Positions 1,413-62,444 of a stretch of DNA of 64,000 nucleotides are shown piece after piece; within the stretch, counting starts at the first letter, position 1; each line of letters starts with the position of its first letter. The notes under the pieces are model-generated. The model ran no database searches and was not told the DNA's origin. It saw only the letters and a program-made list of their open reading frames with translations. Position numbers and translations under genes: made by a program. Origin of the DNA: Paludisphaera rhizosphaerae (GTDB lineage Bacteria; Planctomycetota; Planctomycetia; Isosphaerales; Isosphaeraceae); assembly GCF_011065895.1 (NCBI RefSeq), contig NZ_JAALCR010000015.1:62001-126000 (forward strand). The letters run 5' to 3'.

Positions 1413-1503
1413 TACCGGGGTGGGGACTCGAACCCCAGACCTGCGGATTATGAGTCCGCTGCTCGACTGAAGAGCGGCGGCTGTCAGATCCGCCGCTCTG
1501 ACC
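1413..1503. other. attL: displaced tRNA-Met 3' half plus phage arm
   Basis: Bases 1413-1454 match attR exactly over 42 bp; identity continues to about 1464 with two mismatches. The inner phage arm forms its own tRNA-like D arm on the minus strand (GCTC/GAGC stem) and a perfectly paired anticodon stem (GCGGA/TCCGC), but no matching 5' acceptor strand, so it cannot be a complete tRNA. At 1490-1503 a further 14-bp stretch is identical to the D-arm/anticodon-stem side of the intact tRNA (39867-39880). Confidence 0.9.
1471..1499. repeat. 10-bp inverted repeat in the attL arm
   Basis: AGAGCGGCGG (1471-1480) and CCGCCGCTCT (1490-1499) pair perfectly around 9 bases. It lies between the att core and the integrase start at 1559, where an integrase arm site or a terminator for the displaced tRNA fragment could be expected. 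It has no T-run. Confidence 0.6.
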
Positions 1504-1558: not shown

Positions 1559-2503
1559 ATGCGGCCTGTATCGATCACACGGTTTCGCGCCGAAATCGAC
1601 ACGCTCTACTCGCCCCCTCGGCGGGCCAAGGCGACGCGTAAGCAGATCGCCCAGGTTCTTCGGGAGTTCGCCGAGCTGCCGGGCGTCAAACGCACGTCCG
1701 ACCTGAATCCGGCGACGATAGCCCGGTGGATGGACGCGCATCCCGGGCGGACCGTCGTGCGGACGAAGTCGCTGCTGGCCACTTTCCGAGCCGCGTGCAA
1801 GTACGCGGTCTCGCAGAACTACATCTCCACCAACCCGTTCGACTTCTGGAAGCCGAACGAGTGGATCCGCGACGACGCCGAAGACCGGCCCCGGTCGACT
1901 CGGCCCGTCCGGCACAAGTCGGCCGCCGACCTCGGTCGCGTCCTCGACCAGGCCGACCGCGAGGCTGTGCGGGGTTGGGAGCAACGTCGGCTGCAGGCGC
2001 TGGTGTACACCTATGCATTCACCGGCATGCGGGCCGGCGAGGCGATGCACCTGTACGTCTCGGAGATCGACCTCGACGCCCGGGTTTTGCAGATCGCGGC
2101 CAAGCCCGGTTGGCGGCCCAAGACGCTCAAGAGCGCCAAGCCGATCCCAATCGCCCCGCCGCTGGCCGAGGTCCTGGCGAACTGGCTCCCCCACACCGGA
2201 TCGGCCTGGGCGTTCCCGACGCGCAAGCTCGACCGGCCCTGGACGACCGGCGGTCCCGGCTACCGTCCGCTCGACGCGGTCAAGGAACTGGGTCGGCGAG
2301 CCGGGGTCGAGGGGCTGACGATCCTGGGCTTCCGCAAGTCGATCGGCACCCTCGCGAAAGCGATGGGCATCAGCCAGCTCGAGCGGAAAGACCTGCTAAG
2401 GCATACCTCGGTCGAGACCGGGGATTACTACGACGAGGACGATCTCGACCTCCTCAAGGCGACGATCGCCAAGATCCATTACCCCCGCCATCAGGCGGGA
2501 TGA
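1559..2503 (+). CDS. tyrosine recombinase, phage integrase
   Basis: The 314-residue protein has an N-terminal SAM-like core-binding region (about residues 15-100) and a C-terminal catalytic domain (about 120-305). Visible catalytic elements are Arg158 in TGMRAGEA, a beta-hairpin Lys near 191, Arg259 in LGFRKS, His282 in LLRHTSVE and the Tyr nucleophile at 290/291 (GDYYDE). The usual His of the HxxR box is replaced by Leu256, a known variation in phage integrases. The gene starts about 100 bp inside the attL core and points into the element, the classic position for an integrase acting on its own att site. It should catalyse integration into, and with a helper excision from, the tRNA-Met gene. 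No excisionase was recognised. Confidence 0.95.
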   Translation: MRPVSITRFRAEIDTLYSPPRRAKATRKQIAQVLREFAELPGVKRTSDLNPATIARWMDAHPGRTVVRTKSLLATFRAACKYAVSQNYISTNPFDFWKPNEWIRDDAEDRPRSTRPVRHKSAADLGRVLDQADREAVRGWEQRRLQALVYTYAFTGMRAGEAMHLYVSEIDLDARVLQIAAKPGWRPKTLKSAKPIPIAPPLAEVLANWLPHTGSAWAFPTRKLDRPWTTGGPGYRPLDAVKELGRRAGVEGLTILGFRKSIGTLAKAMGISQLERKDLLRHTSVETGDYYDEDDLDLLKATIAKIHYPRHQAG

Positions 2504-11041: not shown

Positions 11042-11254
11042 CTACTTCGCCGGCCGGCGGCGGGTCTGGATCAGCTTGACGCCCAGGGCCTCGGCCAGGC
11101 GGTCGATCGACGGGCCCGACAACGCCTGATCGCCGGCGAGGAACCGCGTGAGGTTGCCACGGTTGATCCCGGCCTCCTCGGCCAGGGCGTACAGGCTGCG
11201 TTTCTCCGCGCGGAGGATTTCGCGGAGCTGGTCGGATATCAGGTTTCGGGACAC
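11042..11254 (-). CDS. Cro/CI-like XRE-family HTH protein
   Basis: 70 residues from a GTG at 11254 behind GAGGAG; its start overlaps the end of the serine recombinase gene. Residues about 19-60 (SLYALAEEAGINRGNLTRFL, then LSGPSIDRLAEALGVKL) match the five-helix HTH of small Cro/C.AhdI-type proteins, with SIDRLAEALGV the usual closing helix. No dimerisation or protease-sensitive domain is present. It is the only repressor-like protein of this type in the prophage, so it may control the lysogenic switch, the recombinase or both. Likely binding sites are the three palindromes at 11985-12060. Confidence 0.8.
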   Translation of the reverse strand: MSRNLISDQLREILRAEKRSLYALAEEAGINRGNLTRFLAGDQALSGPSIDRLAEALGVKLIQTRRRPAK

Positions 11255-11943
11255 GGTTCGCTCCTCGACAGCAATCGTCGGATGGTGGTGACGCCCCAGG
11301 CCTCGCCGCCGTTCTTGGGCTTGAGCCCCATGGCGAGCAGCTCGGCGGCGATCGCCCGAAGGGATAGGCCGTCGTCGCGGAGCGACCTGGTCAGTTCGAC
11401 CACAGCCGCCTCGTCGGGGTCGACGACCAGGCCGACGCCGTCGTCGGTCGTCCGGAATCCGTAGGGGACCTGGCCGCACCGTTCGCCGTTCGACCGCTTC
11501 GACGCGAGCACGCCGTCCGTGCGCTCCCGGATCTTCGACAGCTCGAACTCCGCGAAGGCGTCTAGAATCCGCCTCATGAGCACGTTGATGGGGGAGTCGT
11601 CTTCCGTCCCCTCACCGGCTGCGGAGACGATCCTGGCCCCCCTGGACGTCACCTCGCGTTCGATCGACGCGCCGGTCCAGGCGTCCGTCCGGAAGATCCG
11701 GTCCCGCTTGGAAACGACCAGGCTGTCCCCCGGGCCGAGTGCGGCGATGGCCTGACGGAGGCCGGGGCGCTTCTTGAGCGGCTTCCCGCCCGACACCCCT
11801 TCATCCCGGATAACCGCCGCGACCGGCCAACCCTTGCGGCCGGCGAACTCCGTCGCGGCCTCTTCCTGGGCGCGCAGGGAGAGCCCCTTTTCGGCCTGCT
11901 CGTCCGTGCTGACCCGGAGGTAGACGACTGCGTTTCCTGGCAT
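11239..11943 (-). CDS. serine recombinase (resolvase/invertase family)
   Basis: 234 residues. The catalytic domain (about 5-145) starts VVYLRVSTDEQ with Ser12 as nucleophile and includes DEGVSGGKPLKKRPGLRQAI, LVVSKRDRIFR and the long E helix (ILDAFAEFELSKIRERT). A compact C-terminal DNA-binding part (about 150-234) ends with LSLRAIAAELLAMGLKP and WGVTTIRRLL, the HTH of this group. The length fits a resolvase/invertase-like enzyme rather than a large serine integrase. With the tyrosine integrase already present, a second recombinase suggests inversion, dimer resolution or an inserted cassette. It is read leftward, coupled to the HTH gene, with palindromes just upstream. Confidence 0.9.
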   Translation of the reverse strand: MPGNAVVYLRVSTDEQAEKGLSLRAQEEAATEFAGRKGWPVAAVIRDEGVSGGKPLKKRPGLRQAIAALGPGDSLVVSKRDRIFRTDAWTGASIEREVTSRGARIVSAAGEGTEDDSPINVLMRRILDAFAEFELSKIRERTDGVLASKRSNGERCGQVPYGFRTTDDGVGLVVDPDEAAVVELTRSLRDDGLSLRAIAAELLAMGLKPKNGGEAWGVTTIRRLLSRSEPCPET

Positions 11944-11984
11944 GGCGGCAAACTCAGGCGGGGAAGCGGCGGGACGGGGATTCC

Positions 11985-12060
11985 GCTGCGCCGGCGCAAC
12001 GGGGTTGCACGTTGCGCCGGCGCAACAGGAACGAACGTCGAGACGTTGCGCCGGCGCGCC
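11985..12060. promoter_or_regulatory. three 16-bp palindromes upstream of the serine recombinase
   Basis: GTTGCGCCGGCGCAAC, a perfect palindrome, stands at 12011-12026. Near copies lie at 11985-12000 (GC at the left end) and 12045-12060 (GCGCC at the right end). Centres are 26 and 34 bp apart. They lie 42-117 bp upstream of the leftward recombinase start. Candidate operators for the HTH protein, or a res-type crossover/accessory site for the recombinase. Confidence 0.75.
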
Positions 12061-12216
12061 GGGCCGGGCGGGGTTTGGCGCGACGGCGGGGGGCCGCGCC
12101 TCACCGGTCGGTGCGGCGCGCCCCTCGCCTAGTAATTTGGACCGCCTGGGCTATCTCTGGCGAAGCGTGGGGTAAAATGGCGAGATGGCAAATCGCGGCC
12201 ACCTGGATCGATCCTC

Positions 12217-13787: not shown

Positions 13788-14201
13788 GTGGCCGAATCCG
13801 ACGATGCCCCGCCGGGGGTCCAGGGGGACGGTCCGTCCTGGGGTCGCCTCTCTCGCTCTGATTTGCTCGCGATGAATCGATCCCTCCGTCTCGGAGGATC
13901 GATCCCGCCCGACCTCTATCCCTGGCTGCTCAAACAGCTCAAGAACCTCGCCGACCCCGAGTACCTGCACCCGCCCAACAACAAGCCCGCGCCCGCCCGG
14001 ACCCGGGTCGCCGCGATGAAGCTGCTCGGCGGCATGATCGGCCTGGGCGTCAAGCAACAGCAGGTCGACATCAACCTCTACAGAGCGGTCGGCCTCGACG
14101 ACGATGCCGTCGGCTCGCCCGATCAGGAGGACGGAGACGCCCTCCGGGAAGCCCTTGAGTTCCTCCGAAACGTCGACAAAGGTACTGCAGGACCTGGGTA
14201 G
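13788..14201 (+). CDS. putative terminase small subunit
   Basis: 137 residues from GTG 13788. Helix-rich: SRSDLLAMNRSLRLGG, LYPWLLKQLKNLADPEYLH, RVAAMKLLGGMIGLGVKQQQ, and an acidic C-terminal helix. Basic/helical N terminus, conserved-looking middle and position directly before the large terminase fit TerS, which recognises phage DNA and feeds it to TerL. The last ~98 bases overlap the possible start of TerL. Assigned mainly from position. Confidence 0.6.
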   Translation: MAESDDAPPGVQGDGPSWGRLSRSDLLAMNRSLRLGGSIPPDLYPWLLKQLKNLADPEYLHPPNNKPAPARTRVAAMKLLGGMIGLGVKQQQVDINLYRAVGLDDDAVGSPDQEDGDALREALEFLRNVDKGTAGPG

Positions 14202-15672
14202 CGCGTGGGGCGTGAAGCTTCCCAGCGTGGCCGTCTGCCGGGGCCATTCCGCCCCGCTGGACTTCCTCCGGGCCCAGTTCGTCGACCGGCCGCCGATCGT
14301 GGCCTGCCTGGGAGCCCGCGGCTCGGGCAAGTCGTTCGGCTCGGCGCTCTCATGCCATCTCGACTCGCTCGTCTATCCCGGGATCGGCAGCCGCATCCTC
14401 GGGGGATCGCTGGCCCAATCGGCCCAGATTCACGAGGCCCTCGGCAAGTTCGACGAGGCCCGGCCCGGACGCACACCATGGAAGCGGTACAACCGGGAAT
14501 CGGTCGTGTACCGCAACGGCTCCAAGGTGGCGATCCTGGCTTGCTCGGCGAAGTCGGTCCGCGGCCCCCACGTCGCCGACCTCCGGCTCGATGAGGTCGA
14601 CGAGATCGACAGCGCGCTCCGCGACGCCGCGATGGGCATGTCGATGGGCCTCAAGGGCGTGCCGGCGATGACGGTCCTCACGTCCACCTGGCACAAGCTG
14701 GGCGGACCCATGTCGGACATCGTCGAGCGGGGGCGGGCCGGCGAGTTCCCCCTGTTCACGATGTGCATCTGGGAGGTCCTCGAAACCTGCCCCGACGAAC
14801 GGTCCGGGGCGAACCTCGAACGCTGCGACGAGTGCCCGCTCAAGCGCTGGTGCCACGAGGACCGCGACGAGCGGCCGGACGGCCTGCCCAAGGCCAAGCG
14901 GTCGGCCGGGCACTACCCGATCGACAGCCTGATCCAAAAGGTCCGGATGGTCTCGGCCCGCGTGTTCGGGGCCGACTACCTATGCACCGGGCCCAAGGCC
15001 GACGGCGTCTGGTTCAAGGGTTTCGAGGTCGGTCGCCACGTCCGGCCCGACGCCGAATACGATCCGGCCCTGCCGGTCTATGTGTCGATCGACTCGGGCG
15101 TCTTCACTGGGGCCGTGCTGTTCCAGCATCGTCCAGCCGTCGGCAGCTCGCCGCCCCGGATCAACGTGTTCGGCGAGTACCTGTCGGAGGGCGTCACCGC
15201 CTATGACGCGGCCCAACGCATCCTGGCCGAGGTCCTCGAGCGGTGCGGGCCCGACGCCCGGCGGTTCGTCTCGACCGACTCGGCCGGCGGGGCCCGGAAT
15301 CCGGTCGGCCCGACCGTGATCGCCGAGTACAAGCGCGCCGGCCTGGTCGGCGTCCGCAACATCGAGGAGTGGCCGAAGTACGCCGGATGCGTGGCCGACG
15401 GCCTGGCGACGATCGAGGCCCTGATCGAGACGGCCGACGGGACTGTGCATCTAGCGGTCCATCCGCGATGCGTGCGGACGATCGCGGCCCTGCAGAGCTA
15501 CGCCCGGGCCAAGCGCGCCGGGCAATGGCAGGACTATCCCGAGGATCCTCAACACCCCCACGAGGACCTCGTCGACGCCCTCCGGGGCGGCCTGAAAATC
15601 TGCCTGCCCAACGGACTCCGATCCGCTACGGCCGGCTTCAAGACCGTCTCCCCACGAAGGGTGTTCAAATGA
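14104..15672 (+). CDS. terminase large subunit
   Basis: The frame gives up to 522 residues. Walker A is GARGSGKS (residues 70-77), the Walker B-like region RLDEVDEID (161-169), followed by the coupling motif TSTWHK. The C-terminal RNase H-like nuclease shows Asp330 (VSIDSGVF), Asp392 (STDSAGG) and Asp488/491 (HEDLVDALRGG). Cys241, Cys244 and Cys250 (CDECPLKRWC), with Cys229 nearby, form a zinc-like insert between ATPase and nuclease, as in some TerL proteins. The start is uncertain: TTG 14155 and GTG 14212 also keep the ATPase domain. TerL translocates DNA into the prohead and cuts it. Stop overlaps the portal start. Confidence 0.92.
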   Translation: MPSARPIRRTETPSGKPLSSSETSTKVLQDLGSAWGVKLPSVAVCRGHSAPLDFLRAQFVDRPPIVACLGARGSGKSFGSALSCHLDSLVYPGIGSRILGGSLAQSAQIHEALGKFDEARPGRTPWKRYNRESVVYRNGSKVAILACSAKSVRGPHVADLRLDEVDEIDSALRDAAMGMSMGLKGVPAMTVLTSTWHKLGGPMSDIVERGRAGEFPLFTMCIWEVLETCPDERSGANLERCDECPLKRWCHEDRDERPDGLPKAKRSAGHYPIDSLIQKVRMVSARVFGADYLCTGPKADGVWFKGFEVGRHVRPDAEYDPALPVYVSIDSGVFTGAVLFQHRPAVGSSPPRINVFGEYLSEGVTAYDAAQRILAEVLERCGPDARRFVSTDSAGGARNPVGPTVIAEYKRAGLVGVRNIEEWPKYAGCVADGLATIEALIETADGTVHLAVHPRCVRTIAALQSYARAKRAGQWQDYPEDPQHPHEDLVDALRGGLKICLPNGLRSATAGFKTVSPRRVFK

Positions 15673-32973: not shown

Positions 32974-33016
32974 AAAAAAGCCGCCGTCGGTCCGCGAGGA
33001 CCGCCGGCGGTTTTTT
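32974..33016. terminator. bidirectional rho-independent terminator
   Basis: A6 (32974-32979) and T6 (33011-33016) flank a long GC hairpin including CGGTCC/GGACCG around GCGA and GCCGCC/GGCGG outer pairs. The A-run and T-run make it active on both strands. Confidence 0.85.
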
Positions 33017-33231
33017 CATGCGCCGGAAACCAAACCGCCCCACATGACGCGCAAGTCGTCGTGCGGGGCGGCTGGTCAGATCCATCAAGATTCCCACGCA
33101 AGCATAGCACACCGGCCCGACCGGCCGATGATTTCCCCGTCCGGGCCCCACTCCCGGCTTTGACCGACCGACTGACGACGACGATCGAGGCCCTGGGCGA
33201 GAGCCTGGGGCCTTCGTCGTTCAAAGCGAAC

Positions 33232-33271
33232 CGCCTCGCGGGTCGACTTTGCACGGCTGACCCGCGAGGCG
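33232..33271. terminator. 13-bp perfect hairpin at the end of the leftward operon
   Basis: CGCCTCGCGGGTC (33232-33244) pairs with GACCCGCGAGGCG (33259-33271) around 14 bases. It lies 90 bases after the leftward operon's last stop. No T-run on either side. Confidence 0.55.
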
Positions 33272-33360
33272 ATTGGACCAGCCGCCGAAAACGCCGGGGC
33301 CGGCCGTTGTGAGATCGCCCCCGCGCCGTGCGCTGTACCTCAAGTATAGTTCCCCGCCGC

Positions 33361-33597
33361 TCAATGCGCCTCGACCGTGTAAACCCCGCGCTCGCCGGTC
33401 TCGGCCTGGTGGGCCCAGACGGCCGCCACGCACTCCCGCCAGCTTCGCCACCGTCCCGCCGACTCGGTCCCCGGGACCGGCCCGTCCCGGCTCCACAGGA
33501 CCCACCGCCACCAACCGTCGCGGCCGCGATGGACGTGGTACTCGATCGGCCTCGGGGCGGCCGGCTTCGGTGCGATGGTCTGAGCCGTTGCGGTCAT
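33361..33597 (-). CDS. small Trp-rich phage protein
   Basis: 78 residues. Compact core RPIEYHVHRGRDGWWRWVLW ... WRSWRECVAAVWAHQAETG, with six Trp. It resembles DUF1508-like or small beta-alpha proteins but is not assignable. Last gene of the leftward accessory operon. Confidence 0.5.
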   Translation of the reverse strand: MTATAQTIAPKPAAPRPIEYHVHRGRDGWWRWVLWSRDGPVPGTESAGRWRSWRECVAAVWAHQAETGERGVYTVEAH

Positions 33598-33615
33598 GGC
33601 GTGCGCTCCCGTCGG

Positions 33616-33909
33616 TTAGAGCGGGCGAGGGTCAAGCGCCGTCAGGTGCCTCCAAGCTTCGTCGCGGATCATGAAGGGGAGGCCGTCGTTGTTTGCGATC
33701 CTCCACGGCGAGGACGGCTGAACGAGGATCCCGGCCTCTATCAGACTGAGAACCGACGGGTCTTCCCAGGGCTTCAGAAAGAGGCAACGCGATCCCTGGT
33801 CGAGGAAGAGGTTCAGGACCCGACGCTCGTCGGGCGAGGCGCCGTCGACCCGCCGAGCCAGCCAGCTCGACCCCTCCGGCTTCTTCCGCCCGAATCGGAA
33901 CCAGCCCAT
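33616..33909 (-). CDS. SieB-like superinfection-exclusion C-terminal domain protein
   Basis: 97 residues from ATG 33909 (GGGGAG about 10 bases upstream); an upstream in-frame start would add 17. Residues about 20-90 read ASPDERRVLNLFLDQGSRCL, LIEAGILVQP, then LPFMIRDEAWRHLTALDP. This matches the cytoplasmic end of SieB family proteins as I know it: EEK..L..F, a short strand, a GIL segment, then the F.I...AW.YL ending. The membrane-spanning N-terminal half of classical SieB is absent here. It might act in exclusion of related phages or only share the fold. Confidence 0.6.
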   Translation of the reverse strand: MGWFRFGRKKPEGSSWLARRVDGASPDERRVLNLFLDQGSRCLFLKPWEDPSVLSLIEAGILVQPSSPWRIANNDGLPFMIRDEAWRHLTALDPRPL

Positions 33910-33967
33910 GACGTCCACTCCCCGGGGTGAATCGAGTCGTCCCGGGGAAGTGTACACCATCGGCCGT

Positions 33968-34762
33968 TCAGGCCTCGGGGTCGACGATCGACGTCTCCCA
34001 GAGCTTCAGGGTCTGCATGAGGATGTCGTAGTCGGCCTTCGTGATCTTCTTCCGGGGGAGCTGAATGGCCACGATCTCGGCCAAGGAGCTGAGCGGTACG
34101 TTGAGGGTCAGGGGCCGCGAATCGCCGGCGATCGGCGCCGTCGTCCCTGGCGAGATGTACTGGCCGTTCATGGGGGTCCTCGCTGCCGACGTCGCATCGG
34201 CGGCGGCCGCATCCCTGTCGGCCTCGTCCGCCGAGACGTCGCCCAGGATACCCTGCTGGTCCAGGCGGGCAAAGAGGATTGTCGACAGGTAGACTCTCAC
34301 CGCATTCCGGGCCGCCTCGTCCGTATAGTCCTCGTTCAACCTCAAATGGTTTTGGAGGATCGTCTGGTCGAGGACCTCGGCCCCGAACTCGCCCCATAGC
34401 ATCGCGTGGGACTTCGGAAGAAGCGCCGCATGCCTGATCTTCTTGTCCCGCTCGGGCGAGCGTTCGAGCGTGTCGGCGACGATCTTGTGGCCGTCGTCGC
34501 TGATCCGGATGCGTCGGCCGTCGCCGCCGCCTTCGTCGTTGATCAAGCCGTACTTCTTCAGCGCCGCGACCGTCTGCGTGAAGCTGCTCCCCTTCTCGCT
34601 GTAGCCGAGGAAACTAGCCGCCGTGGGCATGTGGATCGGGCTGCGCCTCGCCTTCTCGTACAGGATCCGCGTCTTCGAGATCGCCGATTCCAGGTCGATG
34701 AAAGGGGCGTTGCGAGCCCCGCTGGAGTTGGGGGCGACCCGCAGCTTTTCCAGGACGGCCAT
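33968..34762 (-). CDS. winged-helix protein of a widespread uncharacterised family
   Basis: 264 residues. N-terminal region (about 20-100) reads APFIDLESAISKTRILYEKA, TAASFLGYSEKGSSFTQTVA, ALKKYGLINDEGGGDGRRIR, ISDDGHKIVADTLER: a winged-helix HTH plus wing, in a family I recognise from many bacterial elements without known function. The C-terminal part has helical NAVRVYLSTILFARLDQQGI and a final beta/helix segment. It could regulate the accessory operon it is part of. Confidence 0.6.
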   Translation of the reverse strand: MAVLEKLRVAPNSSGARNAPFIDLESAISKTRILYEKARRSPIHMPTAASFLGYSEKGSSFTQTVAALKKYGLINDEGGGDGRRIRISDDGHKIVADTLERSPERDKKIRHAALLPKSHAMLWGEFGAEVLDQTILQNHLRLNEDYTDEAARNAVRVYLSTILFARLDQQGILGDVSADEADRDAAAADATSAARTPMNGQYISPGTTAPIAGDSRPLTLNVPLSSLAEIVAIQLPRKKITKADYDILMQTLKLWETSIVDPEA

Positions 34763-34884
34763 GATCTTCGCTCCATCGAAAGAAGACGTGTTCTCCTAAC
34801 GGGGCGAAGTAATAGCTCTTCCTCGGTGAGCCGTCAACTCCGTTTTCGGCTCGCCGAGCCGGCGAGCCGACGGCTCACCCACCG

Positions 34885-35091
34885 TCACTCCCCGCCGGTC
34901 CATCGCTGTGGAGTCGCGGTCTCGTCGATAATCCCCGCCGCCGCCGCGCGGCTCCGGATCCGCTCGATCGCCGATCGGCATTCGCCGTTGCTGTGATATC
35001 CCGGGCCTGAGACGGCGACGATTTCCGAGCTCGCCGCCTGCATGCGCCAGCGGTATTCGCCCACGTCGTCCCTGTAGATGTAGAAATTCAT
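34885..35091 (-). CDS. DUF1508 (YegP-like) domain protein
   Basis: 68 residues from ATG 35091 behind GAGGAGG. FYIYRDDVGEYRWRMQAASS, EIVAVSGPGYHSNGECRSAI closely follow the DUF1508 repeat (F.IY.D..GEWRWRL.A.NGEIIA.SGEGY.SK....I), a small beta-alpha unit. The family is widespread, often on phages and plasmids; its function is unclear. Confidence 0.8.
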   Translation of the reverse strand: MNFYIYRDDVGEYRWRMQAASSEIVAVSGPGYHSNGECRSAIERIRSRAAAAGIIDETATPQRWTGGE

Positions 35092-35142
35092 GCGGTGAAT
35101 CCTCCTCGAGACATGAAACCGATCGTCCGCCGCCGCTTGTCG

Positions 35143-35463
35143 CTATCTCGGCCGTCGCGGCTCGCGTCCCTCGAGGACGTCGTCGACGGCCGCCGCGACG
35201 ACGAACGGATTGATCGGCCGCCCCTCGTCGCGCTGACTCCGCAACACGGCCTCCATGAGCTCTCCGCGCCGCAACCGGCCGCCCGCAGACTCCAGGGTCG
35301 CTTGCGCCGCCCCATAGGCCCTCGGGTAGTCGTGAGACCTCGCGACCCGCTGGTAGAAGGCTTCACGCCGCCAGAGCCAGACCCGCTGGTCGTCCCTCCA
35401 TACGCCGATTGCCACGACGGCCGCGCCGATCGCGGTCAAGGCAAGGACGATCGCTTCGGTCAC
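35143..35463 (-). CDS. small membrane-anchored protein
   Basis: 107 residues if started at GTG 35463, which has GGAGAA 10 bases upstream; an in-frame GTG at 35499 would add 12. N-terminal hydrophobic helix (AIVLALTAIGAAVVAIGVW) then a basic helical domain (EAFYQRVARSHDYPRAYGAA; GGRLRRGELMEAVLRSQRDE). Unrecognised; probably inner-membrane anchored facing the cytoplasm. Confidence 0.5.
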   Translation of the reverse strand: MTEAIVLALTAIGAAVVAIGVWRDDQRVWLWRREAFYQRVARSHDYPRAYGAAQATLESAGGRLRRGELMEAVLRSQRDEGRPINPFVVAAAVDDVLEGREPRRPR

Positions 35464-35526
35464 TCTGGTTCTTCTCCCGTCTCCCCATCCCGCAGTCACT
35501 CCCCGCCGGTCTGGTCGGTCAGCCGA

Positions 35527-36315
35527 TCAAGGACCGCTGGGAATCAACTTCAAGACCGGTGATGATCGCGATTCCCGGTATTCGAAGAACGATCGTTTGC
35601 CGTTCATCCCCGTCTGATAAAAGGCACCGGTTTCGGTCTGGTCGTGGATCGAGAGATATGCGCTTTCGGCGTCGACGTGAAACAACACCCTGGCAGCACC
35701 GCGACCGTCTCCCAGCAAGAACCCAGAGCCGACCGGGCCAGCGCCGTGAAGACCGGCTCGGGTATTATTGCGGTTGTCCAGGATATTGAGACTGGTCGAT
35801 GACAGCTCAAGACGGGCTCGATCTTCCTGGGCGTTGTGAATTTCGATCCTTCCCTCCGACTCATCCTGACGCCCGGTAGTGCCTAGGACTACCGCATCCT
35901 TGCCGCCGTCTCCCACCACGCGAATCTTATCGGCAATGATCTCAGAAGCCCGAATCGACAGCGCGTCAATGTGGGATGACGCAAGGTCCGTCGTGGGATC
36001 GAGGAGGGTCGCCCTTATGTCTCGCGGAGATCGAGAATGCGCCGGAAATGAATTCCAGGCTTGCCAGGCACCCAGCCCAACCAGAAGGACGGCCAGCACC
36101 CGGTTCCGTCTCTCAAGCCTCCGCAGTCGGACCTCCAGGTCGGAGGTTTGAGACGCGACCTCGAACGTCGGAGGATCGCCATTAGGGGGCTGGGACGCTT
36201 GATAGGGGAACTCGCCCCGACATCTCGCGCATCGAACCTTCGCCCCCTCGGCCGGCGGCACCTTCGCCTTGCCGACCAGCCCGCAATGCGGACAGACGAT
36301 CTCCATACGGTCCAT
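35527..36315 (-). CDS. zinc-ribbon, membrane-anchored protein with exported beta domain
   Basis: 262 residues. N-terminal zinc ribbon (CPHCG ... CARCRGEFPY; MJ0042-like), a coiled-coil segment (SDLEVRLRRLERRNRVLAVL) leading into a hydrophobic helix (about 90-110), then a long extracytoplasmic beta-rich region (RIEIHNAQEDRARLELSSTS; SGFLLGDGRGAARVLFHVDA). Ribbon-helix-exported-domain proteins of this kind are typical of planctomycetes, so this gene may be host-derived cargo. GC is lower than in neighbouring phage genes. Starts one base inside the upstream stop. Confidence 0.6.
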   Translation of the reverse strand: MDRMEIVCPHCGLVGKAKVPPAEGAKVRCARCRGEFPYQASQPPNGDPPTFEVASQTSDLEVRLRRLERRNRVLAVLLVGLGAWQAWNSFPAHSRSPRDIRATLLDPTTDLASSHIDALSIRASEIIADKIRVVGDGGKDAVVLGTTGRQDESEGRIEIHNAQEDRARLELSSTSLNILDNRNNTRAGLHGAGPVGSGFLLGDGRGAARVLFHVDAESAYLSIHDQTETGAFYQTGMNGKRSFFEYRESRSSPVLKLIPSGP

Positions 36316-36578
36316 CAGGCCTTGCCTTTCCTCGGTTTAGGCGGCGCGTCAGGAGATTCGGGGCCGGAGAGCTTCGCCGCTTCGGCTGCGACGTGCTGCG
36401 CGTAACGCTCCTGAAGCACAGGACGCAGGATTTCGGACATCACGTCGACAGCCATTCTCCTCTCGAACGCCGCCACGATCGCTGCGAGTTCGGCCACATC
36501 CTGGGCCACACGAACCTGCGCCGAAGTAGGGCCTTTCTTCTTCGCCACGGGCGGTCTTCTCTCAAGAACGGTCGCCAT
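36315..36578 (-). CDS. RHH-like small DNA-binding protein
   Basis: 87 residues from ATG 36578 with AAAGGGA upstream. The core VRVAQDVAELAAIVAAFERR, MAVDVMSEILRPVLQERYAQ has the spacing of plasmid/antitoxin-type RHH proteins ending in ...SE.LRP.L. First gene of the leftward operon, directly beside divergent promoters, which suits an autoregulator. Confidence 0.5.
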   Translation of the reverse strand: MATVLERRPPVAKKKGPTSAQVRVAQDVAELAAIVAAFERRMAVDVMSEILRPVLQERYAQHVAAEAAKLSGPESPDAPPKPRKGKA

Positions 36579-36595
36579 CGTCGTCCCTTTCCACA

Positions 36596-36710
36596 TTTGT
36601 CACGTTATCACGCCGCCACGGAGCCTTCCACCCTAAGTCTAGCGAGGAAACGGCTAAGATCAATCGCACTGAAAAATTACATGGCTATTGACGACGCGTA
36701 ACTTTGTCAC
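36596..36710. promoter_or_regulatory. repeated octamer TTTGTCAC in the divergent promoter region
   Basis: TTTGTCAC occurs at 36596-36603 and 36703-36710. The first lies in the leader of the leftward operon, the second inside the spacer of the rightward promoter ending at its -10 box. This placement suits a shared operator. Confidence 0.4.
36636..36663 (-). promoter_or_regulatory. candidate leftward promoter of the accessory operon
   Basis: On the minus strand TTGATC (36658-36663), 16 bases, TAGACT (36636-36641), about 60 bases before the ATG at 36578. Confidence 0.45.
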
Positions 36711-36716
36711 TAATAT
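36688..36716 (+). promoter_or_regulatory. strong sigma-70-type promoter of the replication module
   Basis: TTGACG (36688-36693), exactly 17 bases, TAATAT (36711-36716). AT-rich surroundings in an otherwise GC-rich element. It reads into the operon starting at 36820. Confidence 0.75.
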
Positions 36717-36758
36717 TGGATCGTCGGTCGCAAAGTGCGGCCGGCTTCGAAATGCGAA

Positions 36759-36789
36759 GGGCCTCGACGACTGGAACTCGCCGAGGCCC
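36759..36789 (+). repeat. leader hairpin
   Basis: GGGCCTCG (36759-36766) and CGAGGCCC (36782-36789) form a perfect 8-bp stem around 15 bases in the untranslated leader, 30 bases before the ATG at 36820. Possible mRNA stabiliser or antitermination element. Confidence 0.55.
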
Positions 36790-36819
36790 GTAGGTTCGCG
36801 AAAGGCAGGTCACAAACCA

Positions 36820-37197
36820 ATGGCTACTGTACTCCGGTCCGCCTCGAAAGCCAAGGCCGCCAAGCTCCCCGAGATCGTCCGCTGCTGCGACTGCCGATGC
36901 CCGATCGAGGACGAGACCCGGGCCGTTCTGGCACCGATGCCCGTCCGATGCGACACCTGCGACAACATCCGCGAAGCCCGCACGGCGCTTGAGGAGATCA
37001 TCGACTCGGCCGACGAGCGGTTGATCGAGGAGGCCTTGAACTGGCTCCAGCTCGCCCTGACCGATGCGGCGATCTTCCGTTCGGCGAGGGCCCGGCGCAT
37101 CCTGGACGATGCGGTTTACCGGGCGATCGAGGTCGCCAATGTCCGTGAGGTCCGCGACCCGGTCATCGTGGGCGGCGAGGACGATTACGACTTCTGA
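36820..37197 (+). CDS. zinc-ribbon phage protein, first gene of the replication module
   Basis: 125 residues from ATG 36820; an upstream TTG at 36688 is inside the promoter and is rejected. Residues 15-45 read IVRCCDCRCPIEDETRAVLA then MPVRCDTC, a CxxC/CxxC ribbon. Helices follow (REARTALEEIIDSADERLIE; LIEEALNWLQLALTDAAIFR). An early regulator or replication accessory from position; function unknown. Confidence 0.6.
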   Translation: MATVLRSASKAKAAKLPEIVRCCDCRCPIEDETRAVLAPMPVRCDTCDNIREARTALEEIIDSADERLIEEALNWLQLALTDAAIFRSARARRILDDAVYRAIEVANVREVRDPVIVGGEDDYDF

Positions 37198-37220
37198 CCC
37201 AGGGAGGGGGAGGCCTCGCC

Positions 37221-38015
37221 ATGCCGGTCGGACCAGTGGGTTACGCGACGGACAGGCTCGCCCGACGGCACGACGAGGTTTTCCCCGGATCGACGTGCAA
37301 CGGCGCGTTGATCCTCCGGCATCAGGTCCGCGTCCCCCGGGAGGCGGTCCAGGACGTTTTCGAGTGCTCCCGGTGCGGCCGGTGGAGCTTCTACGGTCGG
37401 AGAAGACGAGCGGCGATCAACGAACAGAAGCGGCGGCAGACGGAATCACAGGTGAAGCCGATGAAACTCAGGATTTCGGTCCATCGGAAGAACGGGGCCC
37501 CGAACTACGGGTCGGACGGGGTCGGCGCGGAACTGGAGCTGGAGCTGTCCGACGAGCTGGCCCGCGACGCCAACGCCGTCGTCCAGCACGGCAGCTACTG
37601 GTACGGCTCGCTCGAGCGGATGGTCGACGACCAGCTCCGGCGGATGTCCTCCCAACACAACACGCCAGCCGTCGGCGTCAACAGCAACGGCCATCACTCG
37701 CCGTCGGCTCCGGCTCCGGCCGCGATCCCCGCCCCGGCGCCCATCGCCGGCGGGGCCCCGGCCGGATACCAACAGCCGCCGGCTCCGGCCCCAGCTCCTC
37801 GGCCGTCGGCTCCGGTCGGGGGAGAGCGGAACGACGCCCCCAGGAACGGACGGCAGTTGCTCGGCTGGGCGAACAAGGTCGGCAAGTACGACGACCTGAT
37901 GGCCCTGGCCAAGTCCTGGGGCCGTGGCCGGATCAACGATTGGTCGGCCGACGACGTGGCCCACGCCTACCAGCATCTGGCCCGGCCAACCCCGCAACCG
38001 TGGGGAGGAGGCTGA
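37221..38015 (+). CDS. replication-module protein, unknown function
   Basis: 264 residues from ATG 37221. Residues 45-60 hold CSRCGRWSFYGRRRR, a CxxC half-ribbon. From about residue 81 a second domain (MKLRISVHRKNGAPNYGSDG, AELELELSDELARDANAVVQ) may have its own start at ATG 37461. A long Pro/Ala linker leads to a C-terminal helical domain (NGRQLLGWANKVGKYDDLMA; WSADDVAHAYQHL). The layout of beta domain, disordered linker and short end domain recalls single-strand-binding or recombination mediators, but no family is certain. Confidence 0.5.
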   Translation: MPVGPVGYATDRLARRHDEVFPGSTCNGALILRHQVRVPREAVQDVFECSRCGRWSFYGRRRRAAINEQKRRQTESQVKPMKLRISVHRKNGAPNYGSDGVGAELELELSDELARDANAVVQHGSYWYGSLERMVDDQLRRMSSQHNTPAVGVNSNGHHSPSAPAPAAIPAPAPIAGGAPAGYQQPPAPAPAPRPSAPVGGERNDAPRNGRQLLGWANKVGKYDDLMALAKSWGRGRINDWSADDVAHAYQHLARPTPQPWGGG

Positions 38016-38170
38016 AAAGCAACGCCGGCCGGCTGATTCCGGCCACCCGGCCGCCCGACCTGGCCGAAATCGGCCGGGTCGGTCTGGCCAAAGTCTACGG
38101 TCTGGGGCCGCATCCGCGCATTTTCCGGCGGGATCGGTCCGGTAAAGGGTAGGGGAGGGGGGTTGACGCC

Positions 38171-38199
38171 TTGATTGGCCGCCCGACTCCAGGTATGAG
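38171..38199 (+). promoter_or_regulatory. candidate promoter upstream of the initiator-like gene
   Basis: TTGATT (38171-38176), 17 bases, TATGAG (38194-38199). Four of six matches in each box, ideal spacing. Confidence 0.35.
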
Positions 38200-38278
38200 T
38201 GATTTCGCAATCTTCGGCGGATGACGGTTCGCCAGGATTATCCGTACACCTCGGCGGCCCTAACAGGCTGCCTTGGCT

Positions 38279-38308
38279 CCCCCGGCCGGGCCGTCACTCG
38301 GCCGGGGG
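38279..38308. repeat. 10-bp perfect hairpin before the initiator gene
   Basis: CCCCCGGCCG (38279-38288) and CGGCCGGGGG (38299-38308) around 10 bases. It lies 14 bp before the conserved-loop hairpin 38322-38365, making a tandem hairpin leader. Confidence 0.7.
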
Positions 38309-38321
38309 GACCCACAACCAC

Positions 38322-38365
38322 ACCGAGTTTCGGGGCTTGTCGCCAAACTTCCCCCGCGACTCGGT
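38322..38365 (+). repeat. conserved-loop hairpin, copy 1
   Basis: A CCGAGT .. CGGGG stem (38322-38335) pairs with CCCCG .. ACTCGGT (38352-38365) with one internal wobble/mismatch. The 16-nt loop CTTGTCGCCAAACTTC differs from copy 2 at one base, while the stems differ between copies yet pair. It ends 19 bases before the ATG at 38385, so it would sit in the 5' leader of that mRNA. Confidence 0.75.
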
Positions 38366-38384
38366 CAACGCCAGAGTCACTCCG

Positions 38385-39632
38385 ATGTCTTTCACCGCAG
38401 TTCCACGGGGCGCTCCCCCGCCGGGCGTCCGTGCGCCCGTGCCCAGAAGAGGGTATTGCCGCTCTCCCAAGCAACTCGTCGCCCGCGCCGATCTGACCGA
38501 CGCGGCCAAGATCCTCTTGGCGGCGCTGGCCGGTCTCTGCTGGGGCGACAATCGGGAGGGAACACCTTCCATCTACCATATCGCCGACGCTTGCGGCTGG
38601 GCCGGTAAGACGTGGAAGGTTAAGCGGGCGATGACCGAGGTCGTCAAAGCTGGACTGGTGGACCGATTTCCATGCTCTGACGCGCCGGGCTACGTCTGGA
38701 CGACGCGTCTCCTCTACGATCCATCGGGATACGACGACGTCCACGACGACGCCGAAAACCCGTCCGTCCGCGTCTTTGACCCCAGCGCGCCAGCGCCCCA
38801 ACCCCAGGGCGCAGGTGCGCCGACCCCAGAGCGCCAGTGCGCCAACCCCAGGGCGCAGGTGCGCCGACCCCAGAGCACTGGCGCTACCCCTTCTTCTAGA
38901 AGTATTCAGACTGTCTTAGACCTTGTAGACGACGTAGACGCCGGAACGTCGCCGTCGACGGTTTCGACGACCATCGAATCGGAGAACCCAGTCCCGATAG
39001 TCGAGAATGCAATCCAGGAGAAGACAAGCCCGGACCCAGATCCGGCTCCGGCAGCCGACGCCCAGGACGTTGCCTGTCTGGCGGTCGTTGCTGCTCTCGT
39101 CGAGCGTGCGTCGAAGCTGTGGCCGACCCAGGCTCCGGAGATGAGCCTGCGAGTCGGCGATCTGGTGGATAAGAGTCGCAGTCTCGGCTATGAGAGCGAC
39201 GGTGCCCGGGCGGCGGTTGAATACGCCTACCGGGCAAAAAAAGGGCCTGGACTCGCGTTCTCAATGCTTACCGAGTGGAGTTCACACGGCAAGTCGCTCG
39301 CCGATCTTCGGTCGTATCTCGCGGCGCTGGCACCCAAGCCGACGTCCCGCGTCGAGCCGGTGTCGAAGCCAGTCGAACAGTCTGGGCCCATCGATGACGA
39401 GGACCTCGCTAAAGACCTCGCGACGGCGCGGGACAGAACCCAAAGCCTGCAACAGAGGCGATGGGCGGCAGCCAGGGTCCGGCTTGCCGCCGCGCAAGGC
39501 TACCTCAAGAACGAGAACCTGGACGGTCTTCCGCCGCCGGAGGCGCAAAAAAGAACCGGCTGCGGGGCCTGTCGCCAAACTTCCCCCGCAGCCGGTGCCA
39601 GAGCGTTGTATTCGAGCCGAATCCTAGCCTAA
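38385..39632 (+). CDS. replication initiator-like winged-helix protein
   Basis: 415 residues from ATG 38385; upstream in-frame sequence contains the leader hairpins. Residues 25-110 form a helix-turn-helix domain of the kind seen in phage O and DnaD/RepA-like initiators (ADLTDAAKILLAALAGLCWG, SIYHIADACGWAGKTWKVKR, AMTEVVKAGLVDRF). A disordered stretch follows, coded by the iterons, then a helical middle domain (LAVVAALVERASKLWPTQAP; GLAFSMLTEWSSHGKSLADL) and a charged C-terminal helix. Lambda O has the same design: DNA-binding N terminus, iterons inside the gene, helicase-loading C terminus. No helicase or polymerase is encoded, so the host replisome would be recruited. The 3' end contains hairpin copy 2. 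Confidence 0.65.
   Translation: MSFTAVPRGAPPPGVRAPVPRRGYCRSPKQLVARADLTDAAKILLAALAGLCWGDNREGTPSIYHIADACGWAGKTWKVKRAMTEVVKAGLVDRFPCSDAPGYVWTTRLLYDPSGYDDVHDDAENPSVRVFDPSAPAPQPQGAGAPTPERQCANPRAQVRRPQSTGATPSSRSIQTVLDLVDDVDAGTSPSTVSTTIESENPVPIVENAIQEKTSPDPDPAPAADAQDVACLAVVAALVERASKLWPTQAPEMSLRVGDLVDKSRSLGYESDGARAAVEYAYRAKKGPGLAFSMLTEWSSHGKSLADLRSYLAALAPKPTSRVEPVSKPVEQSGPIDDEDLAKDLATARDRTQSLQQRRWAAARVRLAAAQGYLKNENLDGLPPPEAQKRTGCGACRQTSPAAGARALYSSRILA
38786..38895. repeat. 22-bp direct iterons, candidate replication origin
   Basis: Four consecutive 22-bp units end in ACCCCAG at 38807, 38829, 38851 and 38873, with a fifth, degenerate unit after. Units 2 and 4 (38808-38829, 38852-38873) are identical; units 1 and 3 are near copies. 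Because 22 is not a multiple of three the protein sequence is not repetitive, so the DNA itself appears to be what is conserved. An AT-richer stretch (38891-38935, with TTCTAGAA) follows at once, as a duplex-unwinding element would. Confidence 0.75.
39555..39596 (+). repeat. conserved-loop hairpin, copy 2
   Basis: ACCGGCTGCGGGG (39555-39567) pairs perfectly over 13 bp with CCCCGCAGCCGGT (39584-39596). The 16-nt loop CCTGTCGCCAAACTTC is copy 1's loop with one change. Same orientation as copy 1, 1.23 kb downstream. GCCAGAG follows both hairpins within 10 bases. There is no T-run, so it is not a standard terminator. Confidence 0.8.
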
Positions 39633-39679
39633 ACGGGAGTTCAGGGCAAGGCTTGCGACCCGAATCACACCCGCGTTGT

Positions 39680-39697
39680 ACGGCCTTTGAAGGCCGT
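39680..39697. repeat. 8-bp palindrome near attR
   Basis: ACGGCCTT (39680-39687) and AAGGCCGT (39690-39697) around two bases, about 125 bp inside attR. Could be an arm-type binding site or weak terminator. Nothing else is visible in the gap 39633-39823. Confidence 0.5.
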
Positions 39698-39823
39698 GAT
39701 TCCGAAACTTGTGCACATATTCAGGCGATATCGGTTTCCGACTTCGCTAGCGATGGCGTTCCGGTGCCTCCCGGATCGCCGTAGATTCACCGACGAGGGG
39801 CGAAAGTACGACGGTCGGAGAAG

Positions 39824-39865
39824 TACCGGGGTGGGGACTCGAACCCCAGACCTGCGGATTATGAG
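39824..39865. other. attR core
   Basis: Identical over 42 bp to attL (1413-1454). Covers the tRNA-Met 3' half from discriminator base through the anticodon loop, so the phage supplies the 3' half of the functional tRNA gene. Confidence 0.93.
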
Positions 39866-39897
39866 ACCGCCGCTCTGACCAACTGAGCTACCCCGGC
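39824..39897 (-). tRNA. tRNA-Met (CAT)
   Basis: 74 nt on the minus strand, folding as GCCGGGG/CCCCGGT acceptor (first pair G-U), D stem GCTC/GAGC, anticodon arm GCGGT-CTCATAA-TCCGC, T stem TGGGG/CCCCA with loop TTCGAGT, discriminator A; no encoded CCA. Anticodon CAT; an elongator Met tRNA is most likely, Ile-CAT cannot be excluded. The U31-U39 pair closing the anticodon stem is a mismatch. It is the phage attachment site. Confidence 0.95.
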
Positions 39898-40035
39898 GTC
39901 GAGGGCTGCGATTGGGGAAGCTTGTCCCCAGGAGTCGCCTCGGCGATAATCAACCTACCAGACGACTCCTGCGGCTTCAAGGGGGTCGCCTCGCTTCGGC
40001 CGTACTCCGCGCCTCAAATTCGGAAAGCTCAGGAC

Positions 40036-41709
<1,674 letters not shown>

Positions 41710-41731
41710 CCGCGGCGGTGCCGTAATAGCA

Positions 41732-41771
41732 AGAAGGGCCCATGCGATATCGTTGTCGCATGGGCCCTTCT
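41732..41771. terminator. 16-bp perfect hairpin after ettA
   Basis: AGAAGGGCCCATGCGA (41732-41747) pairs with TCGCATGGGCCCTTCT (41756-41771) around 8 bases. Only three Ts follow, but stem strength and position 23 bases after the stop indicate termination. Confidence 0.8.
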
Positions 41772-42383
41772 GATTTCCGTTCATCGGCTTCCGACCTCCG
41801 CCAGCTAGGCCACGCAAACCACCAGCGCAGCGGGATCGTCAGGGAGGGCCCTCGGCGGCCGCAATCGGCCGATTCATCGAAGACGATTCGCGATTCCATC
41901 GACGACCGTTGTGGCTCGCGCCGCAAGCTGTCACGGGTGTAAGCTCACCGCCGGTCAGGTCAACCACTTCCGAGCCCGGGATGATTCCCAAGGCGGTGAC
42001 CGCCTCGCGTATTTAGAGATCGAAGGCACTGCCATCGCCGGTCATCGGCTCTGCGTCGCGGAGAGAGAGCGCGTCGCCCCGCGCATCATCCCTCCCTCAT
42101 GCCATCCCTCTGTGCCCAGGACGCGAGGGCCTCGCCCGCCAATCGCCGCGGGGTCTACGACTCCTCACGACGGCCTTGAATCAAGCAATCAGTGCGCCTG
42201 GCTAAAAAGCATTTCTTGGGTTTTTTATCGGTGCGTAAGTGAGTCTGAGCGGCACTTCGTTTGCCTCCCCGAAAGATGTTGCCTTGGGCGGGAGTAAGCC
42301 CTAAGCCCGCGAGGCGCAACGTCTCTTGCCCATCTCTCCGCTTCGACTCATCTCTACGAGCAACAGCTGAAGGAGACGAAAGC
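41772..42383. other. 612-bp intergenic stretch
   Basis: No gene could be supported. A plus-strand frame through 41911-42297 is open but has no ribosome-binding site or protein-like character. AT-richer sequence at 42200-42235 (CTAAAAAGCATTTC, GGTTTTTTATC) may hold the promoter of the next gene. Confidence 0.4.
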
Positions 42384-55032: not shown

Positions 55033-55320
55033 CCGGCGAATTTAAGAGCGACCCCTTTTGAGTCCCCCTTTTGAGTCCCCTTTAAGAGCGACCCCTTTTG
55101 AGTCCCCTTTTGAGTCCCTTTTGAGTCCCCTTTTGAGTCCCCCCTTTCCGGCGAATTTAAGAGCGACCCCTTTTGAGTCCCCCCCTTTTGAGTCCCCTAA
55201 GAGCGACCCCTTTTGAGTCCCCTAAGAGTGACCCCTTTTGAGTCCCCTAAGAGCGACCCCTTTTGAGTCCCCAAGAGTGACCCCTTTTGAGTCCCCTTTT
55301 GAGTCCTTTTGAGTCTCCCC
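55033..55320. repeat. low-complexity array built on GAGCGACCCCTTTTGAGTCC
   Basis: Seven imperfect units of GAG(C/T)GACCCCTTTTGAGTCC, at about 55046, 55086, 55161, 55201, 55227, 55250 and 55274, are interspersed with extra TTTTGAGTCCC elements. CCGGCGAATTTAAGAGCGAC occurs at 55033 and again near 55149. The array ends 19 bases before the next gene. Spacing is irregular and there are no unique spacers, so it is not CRISPR. Confidence 0.9.
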
Positions 55321-61947: not shown

Positions 61948-62444
61948 GTTGATTTTCGGGGATCTGGCTCCAAAATAGCGACGCTTTCCCGCCTCCTCAT
62001 CCTTCCGCCTCTGATCGTCGAGCATCCCCCCACGATCGAAGGGGTCGGCCCATCCGGGAATGAAACGCCGCAGGCGATTCAAGATGGCCGCAGGCGCGGA
62101 CCGAGAAGGTTGGAACAAAATCCTAGAAAATTCGTCAAACCTTTCGAGGATCGCGGCGTAGAACTCCCAACATCGGTTTGGTCGAGTCTTCGATCCCTCC
62201 CCCTTGCCGGCGGCGCACTATGTGCTAGTAGTCGATCGCTGGGAGGCTGAGGATGGGTCGGAACGACTGAACCCGTGGGGAATCCCCCGTTCCGAACGAC
62301 CGGGGCCGCGTGAATGAGCTATCCTTGGGTCGACATCCAATTCGAACCGTATCATACGTTCGCTGATACTCGTCGGTGATGCGGAGTCCGAACCGCGGCA
62401 GCCGAGTCTCGGTGAGATCGAAGAAATACACCAGGAGGTGTAAG
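61948..62444. other. leader/intergenic stretch before the DksA-like gene
   Basis: No gene supported. GTCGGAACG at about 62258 and CGTTCCGAACGAC at about 62289 can pair imperfectly. A weak promoter candidate is TTGGGT (62325-62330), 19 bases, TATCAT (62350-62355). Confidence 0.35.

Follow-up and report, generated by a model that had tools for sequence, protein, structure and literature searches.

We identified a candidate replication origin in the last gene of a prophage of Paludisphaera rhizosphaerae, within the 64,000-nucleotide stretch of DNA analysed here (the window; positions 62,001 to 126,000 of contig NZ_JAALCR010000015.1). The middle of this gene, which belongs to a replication-initiator family, carries an array of 22-bp repeats that is directly followed by an AT-rich tract, and the raw GC-skew minimum of the excised element falls within the same gene. 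We consider it quite probable that the array and the gene together constitute the origin for theta replication of a temperate phage that has integrated at tRNA-Met. The features concerned are as follows:

38385..39632, + strand, replication initiator gene, 415 aa from the ATG at 38385, matching phrog_270
38778..38887, + strand, iteron array, four 22-bp repeats and a degenerate fifth
38888..38937, no strand assigned, AT-rich tract 3' of the iterons, containing the AT-richest windows of the gene; candidate DNA-unwinding element

Iteron array and AT-rich tract

An ungapped repeat finder placed the repeats at 38778, 38800, 38822 and 38844, i.e. with spacings of exactly 22, 22 and 22 bp. This bears out the earlier description of four exact-period repeats in mid-gene and extends it by a previously unlisted, degenerate fifth copy (38866-38887), which agrees with the other four at 15-16 of 22 positions. 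The first four copies agree with one another at 16-22 of 22 positions (copies 2 and 4 are the same), and Tandem Repeats Finder reported a 22-bp period over 38779-38873 as well as a 44-bp period over 38778-38876. The iterons are GC-rich (22% AT). The GC-rich palindrome GGCGCAGGTGCGCC is present in copies 2 and 4, and these are its only two occurrences in the 8.05-Mb genome. Dyad symmetry is clear in these copies (6/7 positions pair) and weaker in copies 1 (4/5), 3 (4/6) and 5 (5/6).

The period of 22 is not a multiple of 3, so the repeats run out of frame with the codons, from which the earlier note had concluded that DNA rather than protein appears constrained. The ungapped self-match score of the array is 47.5, while the scores of 2000 synonymous-codon shuffles of the same gene averaged 9.7 and did not exceed 25.5. 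As the score lies above all of the shuffles, the repetition of the DNA exceeds what the protein requires.

The AT-richer stretch said to follow the repeats is likewise real, and it is strong. Within the gene, AT content peaks in the 40-bp windows that start at 38888-38897 (60-62.5% AT, compared with 35% for the gene overall), and only 0.05% of all 40-bp windows in the prophage are equally AT-rich.

It might be argued that the repeats arose by neutral tandem expansion within a disordered linker rich in Pro and Ala, with nothing specific bound to them. Linkers tolerate such expansions, copies 2 and 4 are identical, and units 1-2 and 3-4 resemble a 44-bp duplication (94% match). We regard this as unlikely, given the out-of-frame period, the strong AT-rich tract directly beside the array and the distribution of such arrays among related genes (see the survey below).

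The initiator protein

The open frame of the initiator extends back to an alternative start, GTG 38199, giving a frame of 477 aa. Residues 84-165 of this longer frame match phrog_270, annotated as 'replication initiation protein' (E 2.4e-6); the match covers profile positions 30-108 of 383 alone, that is, an 82-residue N-terminal stretch. The linker and the C-terminal half gave no profile match, and the protein as a whole matched no Pfam family at E <= 1. A profile built from 12 planctomycete HTH_36-type relatives aligns to residues 23-96 with an E value of 0.005, for which hhalign gave a probability of only 6.9%, one side of the comparison being a single sequence. Folded alone, the N-terminal 133 residues reached a pLDDT of 50.6 (low confidence), and a sequence search against solved structures returned only two matches, both with E > 1. 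The N-terminal DNA-binding domain attributed to this protein is thus favoured by the phrog_270 and HTH_36-type matches, but Pfam, searched to E <= 1, lends it no support.

The prophage and its GC skew

The initiator is the final gene, before attR, of a 38.4-kb prophage integrated at tRNA-Met. A tyrosine integrase gene sits just inside attL, and genes for terminase, portal and major head proteins are found at 14-19 kb of the window. The same prophage is present in IMG/VR as contig IMGVR_UViG_2889415604_000004 (38,074 bp). Its boundaries and recombination genes are:

1413..1464, no strand assigned, attL, a copy of the 3' half of the tRNA-Met gene, 50/52 bases identical to 39824-39875; left end of the prophage
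1559..2503, + strand, tyrosine integrase (PF00589, E 1.1e-7; phrog_1, E 1.7e-31)
11239-11943, gene for a serine recombinase; the palindrome TGCGCCGGCGCA recurs next to it at 11984-12060
39823..39897, - strand, tRNA-Met (cat), with attR at 39824-39875

In the excised circle, which would measure 38,411 bp, the raw cumulative GC skew reaches its minimum at 39063, inside the initiator gene, and peaks at 12188; the mean-corrected skew range was reached by none of 5000 block shuffles. Plus-strand genes predominate both at 1.5-10 kb and at 14-33 kb, yet the skew of the two regions is opposite, so the coding strand alone does not explain it. GC skew of the excised genome had been proposed as a check on the origin, and it gave a divided answer: the raw minimum agrees with the initiator gene, but after mean correction the minimum moves to 36983, and in the best two-arc fit the switch falls at 2702, which on the circle is about 2.3 kb away from the iterons. 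The skew thus localises an origin only roughly. The serine recombinase gene and its TGCGCCGGCGCA copies, at the skew maximum, form a candidate resolution site or terminus.

These data bear on another explanation, in which the initiator binds the 22-bp repeats as an autoregulatory or incompatibility site and the origin lies elsewhere in the prophage. Iterons of plasmids often serve copy control as well, and the palindromes at 11984-12060 provide a second array. We judge this improbable, because the 12-kb array stands beside a serine recombinase gene and the skew maximum, as expected of a terminus or resolution site, whereas the AT-rich tract and the raw skew minimum belong to the initiator array.

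Of 45 genomes of the order, 35 contain relatives of the prophage terminase (14104-15672), and many of these have one strong copy (49-58% identity). The own genome contains a second copy outside the window (G000:C6:205972-207423). Followed as a route to sister phages, the terminase led instead to a gene cluster present in most genomes of the order, possibly a domesticated or gene-transfer-agent-like cluster that has been conserved. If the prophage itself were defective, or packaged without theta replication, the origin would be a relic. Terminase relatives with 49-58% identity occupy 31 sites across the genomes of the order, as though belonging to a conserved cluster, and this could be taken in the same sense; on the other hand, the integrase and initiator frames are open and the att sites are identical at 50/52 bases, and we therefore hold a relic to be quite unlikely.

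Outside the prophage, the window also contains a dense array of CCCCTTTTGAGT-type repeats at 55041-55315.

Comparison with the lambda origin

The lambda origin lies inside gene O and consists of four 18-bp iterons with short spacers and a 38-bp AT-rich tract (PMC3349717). According to PMC7466680, the minimal binding site is a 19-bp imperfect inverted repeat, and two iterons together with the AT tract are enough for unwinding. Judged by both sources (PMC7466680, PMC3349717), the origin in gene O of lambda and the Stx lambdoid phages and the candidate in the window share an initiator with an N-terminal DNA-binding domain (putative in the window), mid-gene iterons about 20 bp apart that are partly palindromic, and an AT-rich tract adjoining them.

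There are also differences. The window initiator shows no recognisable relationship to lambda O in sequence, having matched no Pfam family at E <= 1, its iterons are GC-rich, and it is the last gene before attR. Neither a helicase gene nor one for a P-type helicase loader was recognised beside the initiator: no gene at all was called between the initiator stop (39632) and attR (39824), and the two genes upstream of the initiator matched no known replication family among the Pfam and PHROG profiles. We accordingly take the lambda-like reading to be supported for the layout and not for homology: the initiator-family protein, the mid-gene iterons, the AT-rich tract 3' of them and the raw skew minimum in the gene all agree with it, while no homology to lambda O and no P-like neighbouring gene were found. 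It is a known origin design, in this case in a little-studied host. A literature search by title found no paper on origins of planctomycete phages.

By analogy with lambda, we propose that the N-terminal winged-helix domain of the initiator would bind the five GC-rich, partly palindromic 22-bp sites in the DNA of its own linker, that the bound array would strain the adjoining AT-rich tract (38888-38937) until it melts, and that the C-terminal half of the protein would recruit or load the host helicase. If the origin is used in this way, forks would leave the right end of the prophage bidirectionally and cross attP in the excised circle. The candidate offers a minimal prophage origin of about 1.3 kb for Isosphaeraceae-type planctomycetes, which could underlie a replicating vector.

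Outside lambdoid phages, the resemblance to phrog_270 members is limited to the 82-residue N-terminal stretch, the linker and C-terminal half matching nothing. Plasmid NZ_CP011277.1 of Planctomyces sp. SH-PL62 carries an HTH initiator-like gene (locus L054) that is also of phrog_270 type and has a 22-bp in-gene repeat. It differs in being plasmid-borne, in the sequence of its repeat and in the lack of significant similarity to the window protein (phmmer E 0.09). The L054 array was reached by 0/60 shuffles, yet fails the 100-shuffle cut used for the counts below.

In-gene arrays among initiator-like genes of the order

No close homologue of the initiator was found in 44 other genomes of the order, INPHARED phages, PLSDB plasmids or genome contigs, and in IMG/VR the only one was the prophage itself (the contig named above). 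The comparison with homologous phages envisaged in the earlier note was hence possible for remote relatives only. When 45 genomes of the order were searched with phrog_270, 43 gave matches, but so did 10/14 control genomes, which marks the profile as a broad winged-helix detector. We analysed 91 of about 110 matching rows, omitting those with stop codons, second rows beside analysed ones and weak unfetched rows; open frames were taken from stop to stop, and an array was called significant when at most 1 of 100 synonymous shuffles reached it. One chromosomal class, with one member in each of 39 genomes, accounts for 39 of the 91 rows and is treated separately below, leaving 52.

Seventeen of these 52 initiator-like genes, including the window gene, carry significant in-gene arrays. 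With the window gene excluded, the proportion is 16/51, compared with 12/171 in flanking control frames (Fisher p 2.7e-5), the controls being shorter on average (240 vs 351 codons) and some of them possibly not genes. When a score of at least 18 is additionally required, the counts become 9/51 and 6/171 (p 0.0015). Thirteen of the 17 arrays, that of the window gene among them, start between nt 284 and 579 of the frame. The period is 22 or 23 at L006, L061, L086, L049 and L068, and 44 in the window gene; the repeat sequences are unrelated.

The 12/171 ordinary flanking frames with significant arrays speak for neutral expansion, but the enrichment of arrays in the initiator family and their recurrent position within the frame argue against it. 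Arrays are commoner in the remote relatives without being general to them: 35 of the 51 remote homologues have no significant array at the 100-shuffle cut. An AT-rich neighbour is not a general property of the array-bearing relatives either, being present in 11/31, compared with 7.3 expected at random positions (two of 33 arrays had no room for the window of this test and were dropped). The nearest single relative among the 91 proteins compared, L038, is 24% identical over residues 13-337 (E 4e-6), and 16-bp repeats are present in its gene.

Initiator-like genes of the order repeatedly contain in-gene arrays, whose sequences differ from gene to gene. To judge from these, the lambda layout seems to be a frequent arrangement in this order, with no detectable homology to lambda O. 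Two initiator-like genes have strongly palindromic in-gene repeats around an A-run centre, L063 at nt 284-400 of the frame and L048 at nt 729-800.

The chromosomal class

The class found in 39 genomes consists of a single-copy initiator-like gene, with HTH_36 in 2/2 members tested. Its 10 members in one alignment (A1) are 44-80% identical to the first row, while the other two rows of the alignment are more distant relatives (20-21%). The gene adjoins an rRNA operon: SSU rRNA was present in 9/9 long chromosome loci (L117-L125), and the locus of the tenth source, the own genome (L127), ends at the contig end. It also stands next to a gene for a ParB_N-methylase fusion (ParB_N plus DNA methylase; 2/2 tested). 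Significant in-gene arrays of 33 bp were found in 14 of the 39 members; these are in frame and so may in part be protein repeats.

The local GC skew of the adjoining 20-kb stretches rises across this gene in 6/6 genomes sampled, and at dnaA in 4/6. The idea that the gene marks the chromosome origin is nevertheless not supported. In G028, the sole genome sampled along its length with a usable signal (G004 was too noisy), the global skew switches near dnaA (4.296 Mb): 8/10 windows are negative between 0.85 and 4.02 Mb and 14/18 are positive between 4.20 and 7.17 Mb. A local skew step at an rRNA-adjacent gene can come from divergent rRNA transcription. The scan made for this idea found no canonical parS word.

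Hairpins flanking the initiator

Two similar hairpins accompany the initiator gene of the prophage:

38322..38365, no strand assigned, left hairpin, 14-nt arms and a 16-nt loop, 19 bp ahead of the initiator ATG
39555..39596, no strand assigned, right hairpin, perfect 13-bp stem and a 16-nt loop nearly the same as the left one

Both are in the same orientation and have 26/27 bases in common across the loop and inner stem. The loops are identical except for one change that preserves pairing; the outer stems differ but both remain paired, with two imperfect positions in the left one. In its own genome the shared word is confined to these two sites; it was found in 0/20 other genomes, and the only IMG/VR entry with it is this prophage. 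Should translation begin at GTG 38199, the left hairpin would be part of the coding sequence. A known RNA was considered and rejected: in 33000-42000, Rfam gave no family at E <= 1 apart from the tRNA and three hits below threshold, located elsewhere.

On the minus strand, TTCTTTTTT follows the right hairpin and gives it the shape of an intrinsic terminator facing the leftward tRNA-Met gene; the automatic terminator scan, with a loop limit of 8, did not list it. In a leftward RNA the loop of the right hairpin would pair fully with the leader loop, forming a 17-nt duplex with one G-U pair (-29.2 kcal/mol). We identified no promoter for such an RNA.

The hairpins may be protein sites, module boundaries or an antisense pair, and they suggest an extra layer of control on the initiator. 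One scheme, which we think very unlikely, is an RNA switch by which initiator expression is coupled to integration. Transcription of tRNA-Met in the lysogen would run leftward into the prophage and end at the right hairpin; the trailer RNA would form a kissing complex with the leader loop of the initiator and silence it, and excision would cut the link to the tRNA promoter. Such a switch would fit loops that are identical but for a pairing-preserving change and stems that differ and still pair.

Repeats flanking initiator-like genes are found elsewhere as well: 14/91 loci, the window's own included, share a word of at least 13 bases across the gene. At L095 (G023:C390), 22-base AAAGGGGTCAGGACTC-type words stand on both sides of the initiator-like gene, the words at other loci being 13-15 bases long.
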